Below, piece after piece: positions 29,809 to 39,944 of a stretch of DNA of 64,000 nt; the first letter of the stretch is position 1; the number at the start of each line of letters is the position of its first letter. Source of the stretch: Tropicibacter sp. R16_0 (lineage in GTDB: Bacteria; Pseudomonadota; Alphaproteobacteria; Rhodobacterales; Rhodobacteraceae); assembly GCF_017743935.1 (NCBI RefSeq), contig NZ_JAGHRE010000005.1, positions 186,001-250,000 of the forward strand, given 5' to 3'. The notes under the pieces were generated by a model. The model did no database searches. It was not told where the DNA came from and saw only the letters and a program-made list of their open reading frames with translations. Position numbers and translations under genes: made by a program.

Positions 29809-29896
29809 CGTGATCACAGCAAACTGGTGTGTGATCACAAATGACCAGACATTACCTGAATGTTAACGATATCGTGGCTATAGCGTTGTGATCACG
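29809..29896 (-). promoter_or_regulatory. Palindromic operator cluster upstream of sdhC
   Basis: Three GTGATCAC palindromes: CGTGATCACA (29809-29818), TGTGATCACA (29830-29839) and TGTGATCACG (29887-29896). The first two start 21 bp apart, two helical turns, and their flanks match the pair upstream of sucC. The 476-bp stretch 29695-30170 holds the sdhC leader, these sites and repeat copy C; I see no gene in it. Confidence 0.7.
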
Positions 29897-29962
29897 AATC
29901 CCGAGCTACAGATTGAAACCGCCTGACAAACAGGAAAACCAGTCCTTAGGATTGAGGGGGAG

Positions 29963-30149
29963 CTCCCGCACCCGAGCAGACCTGACTGCGTCAGCCCCGC
30001 TAACGGCCTTGGGCCGGGCGCCGCGCTGCGCGCGGCGCGGTCCCGCATAGAGCGCCTGTTTTTCCACAATCCCCAACCGCCGAGCGAAGCGAGGCTCGGC
30101 CCAACGGGAGGAGGTTTTTCTGCCAAGAAAAATTGACGACGGGCGGGAG
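29963..30149. repeat. Dispersed GC-rich intergenic repeat, copy C (composite, inverted halves)
   Basis: Left half matches copy A in its plus-strand sense: TTGGGCCGGGCGCC (30009-30022), GGCGCGGTCCCGCA, a GC-TTTT stretch. Right half matches copy B: CGGCCCAACGGGAGGAGG (30097-30114) and GACGACGGGCGGGAG ending 30149. The outer ends CTCCCGC and GGGCGGGAG are inverted, so the whole looks like two element halves face to face. Confidence 0.75.
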
Positions 30150-30170
30150 TGCCCCTGCCTCGATCTGCTC

Positions 30171-30836
30171 TTAGTCCAACTCGGCTGTCTGTTGTGTCAC
30201 TTCGCGCAACAGCTTCTTTCGGATCCGCTCGGGGTAGTCCAGAAAGCCTGCGGCTGACACCACAAAGGCGCCCTCGCCCACGATCACGTTCTCGAAGAAA
30301 TACGCCGTCAAGTCCGGTTCGCTTTCCTCGATTGCGATGGCGTTCACCGTGATTCCGGCCGCGCGCAACTCAGGGTGGACGGTCGTGGGTTCGAGACCTT
30401 CATTGGAAAATCCGTCCCCCGACAGGTCGATCAGGTGGCGTTTGCAGTCGGACACCTGAGCAAAGGTATTCATGGTTGCTTGCAGCGCCTCGCCAATCGC
30501 AGTCGAAAAGTTGCGCCAAACACGAACGTCCTGTTCGACTGCTGCCGCAAATGCATCAATGGCGACAAAACTGTCAATCCGGGTCCAAGGGATAGTCACT
30601 TGCTGACGCGAAGCGCCGGTCCATTGCACCAACATCAACCGGCTGTCGCCCCGCACCAAAGCCTCGGAAATGATCGGATCGCGCAAGGCGTGTGCCAGGC
30701 CGTTCATTTGGATGGCGTATTCGCGGCTGTCCACCGAACCGGACACATCCACAGCCAGCGCCAAGGCCAGATCGCAGGCCTGAGCCGGTAAGGTCATGAC
30801 CGCAAAGGCCAAGGCAGAGATCGCGGTTCGCCACAT
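30171..30836 (-). CDS. DUF1194 domain protein with von Willebrand A fold
   Basis: A 221-residue exported protein. Signal peptide MWRTAISALAFAVMTLPAQA is followed by LALAVDVSGSVDSREY, which carries the DxSxS metal-ion-dependent adhesion site of VWA domains, and later LIDLSGDGFSNEG. Secreted VWA proteins bind other proteins through a metal ion; the partner is unknown. It lies downstream of the GNAT gene and ends the mcl2-to-DUF1194 run of minus-strand genes. Confidence 0.87.
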   Translation of the reverse strand: MWRTAISALAFAVMTLPAQACDLALALAVDVSGSVDSREYAIQMNGLAHALRDPIISEALVRGDSRLMLVQWTGASRQQVTIPWTRIDSFVAIDAFAAAVEQDVRVWRNFSTAIGEALQATMNTFAQVSDCKRHLIDLSGDGFSNEGLEPTTVHPELRAAGITVNAIAIEESEPDLTAYFFENVIVGEGAFVVSAAGFLDYPERIRKKLLREVTQQTAELD

Positions 30837-30882
30837 GAGACCACCTTACGAGAGGCAGCCACAAAGTCACGTCACGAACACA

Positions 30883-37571: not shown

Positions 37572-38534
37572 ATGGCCAGACCCAAAATTGCCCTTATCGG
37601 CGCAGGGAACATCGGCGGCACACTCGCGCATCTCGCAGCAGTCAAGGAATTGGGCGACGTTGTCCTTTTCGACATCGCAGACGGCCTGCCCCAGGGCAAG
37701 GCGCTGGACATCGCCGAATCCGGCCCGTCCGAAGGGTTCGACGCCGCCATGTCGGGCACCAGCGATTACGCTGACATCGCAGGCGCAGACGTCTGCATCG
37801 TGACCGCCGGTGTCGCACGCAAGCCGGGCATGAGCCGCGATGACCTGTTGGGCATCAACCTGAAGGTCATGAAGTCGGTTGGCGAAGGTATCGCCGCTCA
37901 CGCCCCCGACGCGTTCGTGATCTGCATCACCAACCCGCTCGACGCGATGGTCTGGGCCCTGCGTGAATTCTCGGGCCTGCCCCACAACAAGGTCTGCGGC
38001 ATGGCAGGCGTTCTGGATTCGGCACGTTTCGCGCACTTCCTGTCGGAAGAGTTCGGCGTATCCATGCGCGACGTGACCGCGTTTGTTCTGGGCGGCCACG
38101 GCGACACCATGGTGCCATCGGTTCGCTATTCGACCGTTGCCGGTATCCCGCTGCCCGATCTGGTTGAGATGGGCTGGACCACTCAGGACAAGCTGGACGC
38201 CATCGTGCAGCGCACCCGTGACGGCGGCGCCGAGATCGTTGGCCTGCTGAAAACCGGTTCGGCTTACTACGCGCCTGCCACTTCGGCGATCGAGATGGCT
38301 GAGGCTTATCTGAAAGACCAAAAGCGCGTTCTACCTTGCGCGGCATATTGCGACGGCGAACTGGGCGTCAAAGGCCTGTACGTTGGCGTGCCGACCGTGA
38401 TCGGTGCCGGTGGCGTCGAGCGCATCGTCGACATCAAGCTGAACAAAGACGAGCAGGCCGGTTTCGACAACTCGGTCAACGCCGTCAAAGGCCTGATCGA
38501 CGCGTGCAAAGGCATCGACAGCTCGCTGGCCTGA
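37572..38534 (+). CDS. mdh: Malate dehydrogenase
   Basis: A 320-residue NAD-dependent enzyme that oxidises malate to oxaloacetate. Rossmann motif [16 protein letters not shown], substrate arginine in [16 protein letters not shown], and catalytic His in [12 protein letters not shown]. It belongs to the LDH-like MDH group. A bidirectional terminator separates it from the convergent glycosyltransferase gene. sucCDAB follow further along the same strand. Confidence 0.97.
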
Positions 38535-38556
38535 TCGGCACAGCATCGCGAAATCC

Positions 38557-38587
38557 AAAAGGCCGGGTGAGTTTTACCCGGCCTTTT
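38557..38587. terminator. Bidirectional terminator, mdh / glycosyltransferase
   Basis: Stem GGCCGGGT (38561-38568) with ACCCGGCC (38576-38583), flanked by AAAA on the left and TTTTT on the right. It can end transcripts from both sides; its right edge touches the stop codon of the minus-strand gene. Confidence 0.88.
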
Positions 38588-39724
38588 TCATGTTTCCGCC
38601 ATAGTTTTGGAAGTCCCGGAACCGGCATCGATTGGCGCTGCAGCTGCGGCAGATCTTGCCGACCTGCGGCTCAGGCGATACCACCGTTTGCGCTTATCCG
38701 GCAGATCCTCTTGCCAATTCCCCAAGTACCCGTCGAACGCAGACAAGGACATGTCAACTTGGTCGCCTAACCCGAGACGTTCAATTGCACCCAAGGGGTC
38801 GATCTGCCCACGGCAGATCAGGCCAAGCATATCAAGACGCTCGATATCATCAGGGTGCAGGGTCTTGAGCATCTGGTGCAGATCAAACAGGGCGTCGAAT
38901 TCACCTTCGTTGTCGGCCACATAGTGCAGCTGTTCGCCCCGTGGCGTGCCAAGCAAACTGTGTTTGCTGACCTTCTGGTTCTGGTTGAAATACAAGCGCC
39001 GCAGCTTCATGACCCAATGCAGCCCCGTCAGGCCGTCATAGTGAAAGACACTTACGCCAACCCCGTCTATGGCTGTCGCACGCCGTTCCATGCTGCTTGA
39101 TGACCGCGGCGAATGGATGCCCGGCAACAACCCAACCCCGGTGCGCATGATGGATTTGCCAGACCCGTGTGCAGGCAACCCACGGCTCAGATACGGCGTG
39201 ATATCGTCACTGAAAATCGCTTCCTGCTTGACCCAGCTGCGGGGCAAGGGGCGGCGCATGACGCCGTCGAACAAATGCCGCTGAGCGACCGTGCTGTCGA
39301 AAACACGTTCGACATTGGGCACGGCGACATAGTCCACGCCGTCGGGTACGGCGCCAAGGTATCGGGACAAATCAACGTCACTGTGCAGAAACTCGTCGGC
39401 GTCCACATGTGCCAACCAGTCAACCTCGGCCCGCCCATAGGCATTGAAAGCATTTTGGATCTGGCGTTTTTCGGTACTCACCGGCCGATCCGTGCCAAGG
39501 GTCTCGAGCCAATAGGCCGCGTCACAGACGATGATCTCGCATTTGCGAACATCGGCGAGGATGTCGCACAGCTCTGGGTTCGGCTGATCCAAGAACAGAT
39601 AGATGCGGTGTGCGCCCATCTCGAGGTGGTGCGCGACAAAGGCCACCATCAGGGGCGTCGGTTCGGCACATGTGCAGACCACACCCCATCTTACCTTGTC
39701 TTTTGGGGGGGATTTGAAAAACAC
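38588..39724 (-). CDS. Glycosyltransferase family 2-like protein
   Basis: A 378-residue putative glycosyltransferase with RWGVVCTCAEPTPLMVAFVA at the start, the metal-binding motif HVDADEFLHSD (DxD) about a third of the way in, and SVFHYDGLTGLHWVMKLRR later. It fits the Glyco_tranf_2_4 family often tied to surface polysaccharide. No polysaccharide cluster is nearby. It is transcribed alone. Confidence 0.85.
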   Translation of the reverse strand: MFFKSPPKDKVRWGVVCTCAEPTPLMVAFVAHHLEMGAHRIYLFLDQPNPELCDILADVRKCEIIVCDAAYWLETLGTDRPVSTEKRQIQNAFNAYGRAEVDWLAHVDADEFLHSDVDLSRYLGAVPDGVDYVAVPNVERVFDSTVAQRHLFDGVMRRPLPRSWVKQEAIFSDDITPYLSRGLPAHGSGKSIMRTGVGLLPGIHSPRSSSSMERRATAIDGVGVSVFHYDGLTGLHWVMKLRRLYFNQNQKVSKHSLLGTPRGEQLHYVADNEGEFDALFDLHQMLKTLHPDDIERLDMLGLICRGQIDPLGAIERLGLGDQVDMSLSAFDGYLGNWQEDLPDKRKRWYRLSRRSARSAAAAAPIDAGSGTSKTMAET

Positions 39725-39913
39725 CCGAAAACTCCGCGCACGTGACTGAAAATCCTTAATCGAAGGTTAACTATGGCTCTATTCAGGATCAAGCGCTCGG
39801 CAGTGGGGTTCTGGTGCTTCAGTGACGCTGTGACCTTATCGGCACTGTCGAAACCGAATGTTAACTGGTCGGATTCGAACGCTGACACGGATGAACTCAG
39901 CGATTCGCAGTGT

Positions 39914-39944
39914 TGTGATCACACTCATCTGGCGTGTGATCACA
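39914..39944 (+). promoter_or_regulatory. Paired palindromic operator upstream of sucC
   Basis: TGTGATCACA at 39914-39923 and again at 39935-39944, starts 21 bp apart, with CTGGCG between and AAAT after. The pair matches that at 29809-29839 in spacing and flanks. It lies 110-140 bp before the sucC ATG. The 329-bp gap 39725-40053 also has a CCCTTT/AAAGGG inverted repeat (39988-40003); no gene seen. Confidence 0.72.

Follow-up and report, generated by a model that had tools for sequence, protein, structure and literature searches.

How two operons of the tricarboxylic acid (TCA) cycle come to share one operator of fixed geometry is the question raised by the 64,000-nucleotide stretch of Tropicibacter sp. 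R16_0 considered here (contig NZ_JAGHRE010000005.1, positions 186,001 to 250,000; the window, in the following). Upstream of both sdhCDAB and sucCDAB-lpd lie two short palindromes spaced 21 bp apart. We propose that these sites are operators of the ortholog of AkgR (RSP_0981) of Rhodobacter sphaeroides, a regulator of the GntR/FCD family, and that two dimers per pair, probably in contact with each other, activate both operons. We assign this reading, which is drawn from sequence comparison, a probability of roughly 0.85.

Paired operators upstream of sdh and suc

The window contains the following sites, all identified by sequence match and listed without strand:

29809..29818, no strand, sdh operator, promoter-proximal palindrome CGTGATCACA
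29830..29839, no strand, sdh operator, distal palindrome TGTGATCACA, 21 bp from the proximal one
29887..29896, no strand, third sdh site TGTGATCACG, 57 bp upstream of the distal site
39914..39923, no strand, suc operator, distal palindrome TGTGATCACA
39935..39944, no strand, suc operator, promoter-proximal palindrome TGTGATCACA

All five were found again where an earlier, sequence-only reading had placed them (29809, 29830, 29887, 39914 and 39935), and its estimate that about 26 of 32 bases agree between the sdh and the suc pair was reproduced on recount (26/32). Because sdh is encoded on the minus strand, the site at 29809 is the promoter-proximal one. Measured from the 8-base core and in the orientation of the operon, the pair ends 115 bp before the start codon at sdh and 110 bp before it at suc. 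The number of sites within the window is not extreme, with five found (at most one mismatch) against 2.16 expected and 9 of 100 shuffles reaching five. The 5.24 Mb genome as a whole contains TGTGATCACA seven times and the pattern YGTGATCACR 32 times, and the pairs at sdh and suc are the sole pairs of this pattern (gaps of 2–32 bp searched). The genome-wide check that the sequence-only reading had proposed, with equal frequency at random intergenic sites as the outcome that would count against it, hence finds the pair not scattered over other intergenic sites of the genome. According to mechanical open reading frame (ORF) calls, 5 of the 32 occurrences belong to sdh and suc, one lies at a GntR gene, one outside long ORFs, and 25 inside ORFs of at least 236 codons. 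The other occurrence outside long ORFs (G000:C22:348166, L027:2167) is located about 190 bp before an ORF for an ABC-transporter ATPase, following an acyl-CoA dehydrogenase ORF.

Conservation of the pair across Rhodobacteraceae

The family was sampled with 394 genomes from 393 genera, that is, nearly one genome per genus, and a pair was defined as two YGTGATCACR with a gap of 2–32 bp. Such close pairs occur in 352 of the 394 genomes, mostly two per genome, and a control with the reversed pattern gave zero in every row. Among the places listed individually (41 genomes, 75 pairs, transcribed by hand), 65 pairs have a spacing of 21 bp and seven of 20 bp, with one each at 13, 18 and 31 bp. Assignment to downstream genes yields 146 distinct pairs, 63 at sdhC and 83 at sucC (three suc loci with at least three sites contribute two pairs each); 130 of these are spaced by 21 bp, 16 by 20 bp and none by any other distance between 17 and 25 bp. 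The twin operator with fixed 21-bp spacing, described earlier for the two operons of the window, thus holds family-wide, with 20 occurring beside 21 bp, and the pair is not absent from close relatives, as the same reading had considered: all 15 relatives examined carry it at both sdhC and sucC. The third site is conserved in close relatives, with an exact match 56–57 bp upstream of the distal core in 6 of 63 sdh promoters, including this genome and one further genome of the genus.

The sequence between the paired sites varies freely among relatives. The central flank that had been reported as common to both pairs is best abandoned; CTGGYGTGTGATCACAAAT lies on the distal side at sdh and on the proximal side at suc. 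A common CTGGYG spacer was rejected as a functional element, because spacer sequence is unconstrained and the two operons are oriented in opposite directions; given the free variation, the shared flank is a coincidence. GAATGTTAAC, whose two occurrences in the window (29858 and 39856) are both close to one of the pairs, was likewise discarded as a second shared element, with GTTAAC present up to 60 bp upstream of the pair in just 2 of 31 promoters of sdh and 1 of 35 of suc (this genome counted). The same-genus relative retains GTTAAC at sdh, while most of the wider family is without it. A CGCTAAC-type sequence is seen near 12 of 63 sdh and 10 of 83 suc pairs, compared to 2.8 and 3.5 in shuffles and 21 of 1320 background windows.

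An ortholog of AkgR as the probable regulator

The regulator of the pairs is very probably the ortholog of AkgR, judging by sequence, position and co-occurrence. The candidate, P0002 (215 residues, G000:C2:35950-36591, outside the window), matches the Pfam domains GntR and FCD, both above cut-off. The genome contains 28 hits to the GntR domain, and for one gene only, this one at C2:35950, an exact YGTGATCACR lies just before the start; three other GntR-domain genes have the core GTGATCAC at 300 bp or more, and none closer. Across the 394 genomes, an ortholog (E<1e-61) and the pair occur together in 342 cases, the pair alone in 10, the regulator alone in 14, and neither in 28 (table transcribed by hand, with 6 of 26 regulator-less genomes inferred by elimination).

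The genomic location of the ortholog points in the same direction. In G093 the gene lies just past sucCDAB-lpd; in G051 it follows sdhB at a distance of about 750 bp, with 21-bp pairs at both suc and sdh less than 11 kb away. G051 has a single strong hit, 78% identical to P0002. We take this genome to be R. sphaeroides-like, as its PufL is 100% identical to the R. sphaeroides sequence. RSP_0981 is AkgR, said to be an activator of TCA cycle genes. Excerpts of a published study give the GntR-type RSP_0981 as predicted controller of RSP_0967-6 (succinyl-CoA synthetase), RSP_0974-6 (succinate dehydrogenase) and RSP_0965-62 (2-oxoglutarate dehydrogenase) (PMC4344238). P0002 is accordingly a putative ortholog of RSP_0981, linked to it through the position of the gene in G051 and the excerpted predictions (PMC4344238), not through the sequence of RSP_0981 itself. 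The core GTGATCAC, identified among the binding sites of the activator AkgR according to an excerpt of PMC6365646, is present in both the sdh and the suc promoter of the window. In essence, the finding extends a known regulon, that of AkgR, to a further genome of the family.

Helically phased A/T between operator and promoter

Between the pair and the promoter, both operons have a stretch in which A/T content follows the helical repeat. The corresponding regions of the window are:

29756..29805, minus strand, sdh linker from operator to promoter, its A/T stretches helically phased (amplitude 0.141, against a 95th percentile of 0.132 for background windows)
39948..39997, plus strand, suc linker, with phased A/T in the family (amplitude of this single sequence 0.082, unremarkable)

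The profile is based on promoters with 21-bp pairs, 55 from sdh and 75 from suc, with the proximal site as the common reference. The A/T fraction downstream of the pair oscillates over about five helical turns, with maxima near +5, +15.5, +24 to +26.5, +35 and +46; at the minima it falls to 0.09 to 0.29. A period of 10.25 bp fits best for sdh and one of 9.75 bp for suc, with a phase coherence of 0.92 in both, where Rayleigh values treat related sequences as independent. None of 2000 circular-shift controls reaches the observed amplitude in either operon. Without the first four positions, the correlation between the sdh and suc profiles is 0.58 and peaks at lag 0. At the level of single stretches, and relative to 19,453 composition-limited background windows, the 95th percentile is surpassed by 45 of the 63 sdh sequences and by 42 of the 83 suc sequences; measured against 1,068 noncoding windows, the numbers are 36 of 63 and 28 of 83.

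Relatives without AkgR provide a comparison. Of 28 such genomes, 26 have a SucC match, and 24 loci were used, leaving out weaker, paralog-level hits. None of these 24 has GTGATCAC within 200 bp upstream of sucC. Their amplitude is 0.057, at background level, versus 0.138 in 69 AkgR-type promoters (those of the 83 suc pairs within 125 bp of the start codon; p 4e-8), a contrast that is only suggestive because amplitude partly depends on A/T content. Beyond the phased stretch, 21 of 35 suc promoters have a [CG][GC]TTT element beginning at +48 or +49, and 20 of 31 sdh promoters have CGTGAC beginning at +61 or +62; both elements may be parts of the promoters.

Proposed mechanism and alternatives

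In the proposed mechanism, one AkgR dimer would occupy each palindrome and hence two dimers each pair. Because the centres are two helical turns apart (21 bp, sometimes 20), both dimers would lie on one face of the DNA, probably touching; cooperativity is suggested here by geometry, as it was in the sequence-only reading. From the paired sites, AkgR would activate sdhCDAB and sucCDAB-lpd. The A/T of approximately 10-bp period that fills the five turns between pair and promoter in both operons may bend or wrap the DNA, or may offer minor-groove contacts to the alpha subunits of RNA polymerase, such that AkgR meets the polymerase. A contact between dimers is favoured by the combination of free spacer sequence and fixed spacing, and by triples at 21-bp steps: in the suc promoters of L350 (G191), L235 and L248, at least three GTGATCAC stand in a row with two successive steps of 21 bp, and L248 has a further site 26 bp away.

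Tentatively, and with the odds slightly against so broad a statement, sdh and suc promoters across Rhodobacteraceae could be viewed as one fixed nucleoprotein module, in which two AkgR dimers two turns apart are followed by about five turns of conserved, phased A/T, through which the DNA is bent or wrapped onto RNA polymerase. Selection on the segment from activator to promoter would then be for shape, with phase and not sequence conserved, and this shape code would be missing from the suc promoters of AkgR-less relatives.

Several observations weigh against the proposal or parts of it. The association between ortholog and pair (Fisher p 3e-24) was computed ignoring phylogeny. Ten genomes have the pair only; seven of these are less than 90% complete, but G114 (100%), G256 (93%) and G019 (91%) are not. 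Fourteen genomes have the regulator without a strict pair, with near-miss pairs seen in four of them (G040, G079, G154 and G346; placed at sdh and suc for two and at sdh for one). The AkgR ortholog is without the N-terminal extension by which NanR dimers cooperate. With respect to the linker, the suc stretch of the window is itself not strongly phased (0.082), and a weaker period exists also upstream of the pair, with 10.5-bp amplitudes of 0.034 and 0.052 versus 0.138 and 0.107 downstream; only 1 and 0 of 2000 controls reach these upstream values. Finally, the AkgR-less sucC upstream regions are poorer in A/T (mean 0.41 versus 0.54 in the phased suc stretch), which lowers their amplitude.

The upstream period is also what might be expected if AkgR binds but the two sites act independently, with fixed spacing and A/T pattern arising from shared ancestry or from contacts of RNA polymerase, and neither dimer contact nor bending. 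Additional sites at out-of-phase distances, for example 57, 26 and 47 bp, fit such independence. We regard it as unlikely, yet as the most serious of the alternatives: spacer sequences vary freely and the spacing is nevertheless 20 or 21 bp in 146 of 146 assigned pairs, the triples in L350 and L235 step by 21 bp, and a 21-bp pair also precedes the fumarase gene in G042.

The remaining alternatives concern the identity of the binding protein. A paralogous GntR/FCD regulator, or several related ones, might bind the pairs; the next closest GntR of the genome is P0003 (C32:204818, 39% identical), GTGATCAC has also been proposed for a more distant GntR in Pseudomonas (PMC6365646, excerpt), and related GntR genes adjoin such pairs outside the family. 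Still, no GTGATCAC occurs in the 3.2 kb surrounding P0003, and the R. sphaeroides-like genome has the pairs although its second-best hit is just 33% identical to the query, so that we consider a paralog improbable. Even less is to be said for CceR, the LacI-type carbon regulator which the sequence-only reading had named together with AkgR as a candidate. RSP_1663 (CceR) is a predicted regulator of succinate dehydrogenase in R. sphaeroides, but its predicted motif [AGT]GTT-N6-8-AAC[ACT] (both PMC4344238, excerpt) differs from the palindromes and is absent from 29694-30170 and 39725-40053, although CceR may still act at sdh via other sites. Of the two candidates, AkgR gains from the site at its own start, from co-occurrence and from its location beside target operons in G051 and G093, whereas it is very improbable that CceR binds the palindromes.

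A lineage-dependent site at the akgR start

Among the 30 akgR loci most similar to the protein of this genome, all scored by alignment, 29 have GTGATCAC at 18–68 bp, mostly 20–26 bp, before the akgR start. Of the 79 named loci retrieved using the R. sphaeroides-like protein, only 14 have the site, and G051 is without it. The akgR-start site hence depends on lineage, and its position suggests autorepression in some lineages only: in one lineage group, including this genome, a single site about 24 bp before the start codon would probably mediate negative autoregulation.

Pairs at other places and outside the family

Twelve places with a pair were not assigned to sdhC or sucC. In a genome of another genus (G042:C16, L182:3292-4834), a third strict 21-bp twin site is found at the start of an ORF for a class II fumarase, the step of the TCA cycle after succinate dehydrogenase. 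In G296 (L195:1501-2904), a thiolase ORF is preceded by a 21-bp pair at a distance of about 200 bp, and in G177 (L355:533) such a pair stands ahead of an ORF with a SucA-like start instead of sucC. L061 and L183 represent one and the same place with an 18-bp pair; the pair of L310 lies within a long ORF and that of L203 ahead of an ORF of 214 codons. The 24-bp pairs of two genomes (L193, L200) were rejected, as they are located inside long ORFs. The unassigned pairs of L290, L291 and L298 are from outside Rhodobacteraceae.

A class-wide sample of 337 genomes contains the pair in 5 of 5 Rhodobacteraceae and in 5 of 332 others. The five matches outside the family have no sdh or suc gene alongside within the 2.5–3 kb read, and two of them adjoin a related GntR/FCD gene. 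One pair of 21 bp, from another family of the class (G539, L291:991-1900), lies just before a distant GntR/FCD gene (29% identical), and pair geometry may on this ground predate the use at sdh and suc.

Comparison with known systems

The system matches the AkgR regulon of R. sphaeroides in its GntR regulator, its GTGATCAC sites and its targets sdh, sucCD and sucAB-lpd (PMC4344238 and PMC6365646, excerpts). The 21-bp geometry is common to this genome and G051; in G051 the ortholog lies beside sdhB, whereas here akgR and the two operons are on different contigs, and the site at the akgR start is absent in G051. The PS417_07240-type GntR of the deoxyribonate cluster in Pseudomonas, 32% identical to AkgR, shares GTGATCAC as proposed site, but the excerpt describes a single conserved palindrome upstream (−47 to −40) of the gene for the regulator in a catabolic cluster, and no pair at a TCA operon (PMC6365646). 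Escherichia coli NanR on its (GGTATA)3 operator is similar in that GntR-type dimers assemble cooperatively on neighbouring sites with a required spacing; it differs in that it represses, binds three close repeats and cooperates via a 32-residue N-terminal extension (PMC8012715, excerpt). In P0002 the GntR match begins at residue 15, leaving about 14 residues ahead of it, unlike the NanR-type extension. The closest solved structure by sequence is E. coli McbR (PDB 4p9f; E 7e-18 over nearly the whole chain), a different regulator.

Genes of the two operons and their neighbours

The operons of the window consist of the following genes:

29311..29694, minus strand, sdhC (TIGR02970)
28927..29298, minus strand, sdhD (weak Sdh_cyt match under the Pfam cut-off, and position between sdhC and sdhA)
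27087..28901, minus strand, sdhA (TIGR01816)
26296..27075, minus strand, sdhB (Pfam Fer2_3 and 4Fe-4S domains)
40054..41247, plus strand, sucC (NF001913)
41900..42781, plus strand, sucD (Pfam CoA_binding and Ligase_CoA)
43308..46334, plus strand, sucA (Pfam E1_dh and OxoGdeHyase_C; ORF start given, true start probably slightly downstream)
46338..47840, plus strand, sucB (Pfam 2-oxoacid_dh)
48892..50280, plus strand, lpd (Pfam Pyr_redox_2 and Pyr_redox_dim)

Directly past sdhB, an ORF of 718 codons (24095-26251, minus strand) contains RTX calcium-binding repeats. Elsewhere in the window, a gene for a LuxI-type autoinducer synthase adjoins a gene for a LuxR-type autoinducer-binding regulator (13432-15019, minus strand).

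Significance

The literature searched, which did not extend to the 2015 mBio paper on AkgR (Imam et al.), contains no description of the fixed pair geometry or the phased linker, nor of an akgR site that depends on lineage. The two-turn geometry, the A/T period of about 10 bp from pair to promoter and the variable site at the akgR start may be new. A previously unassigned operator is now tied to a named regulator, AkgR, and the 20/21-bp geometry together with the phased A/T linker provides a testable model of a GntR-type activator that would act from about five helical turns upstream of the promoter. The findings further suggest a wiring rule, near-universal in Rhodobacteraceae, by which AkgR controls sdh and suc. 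Judging by the difference between lineages at the start of akgR, the same regulon seems to be wired with and without a feedback loop.

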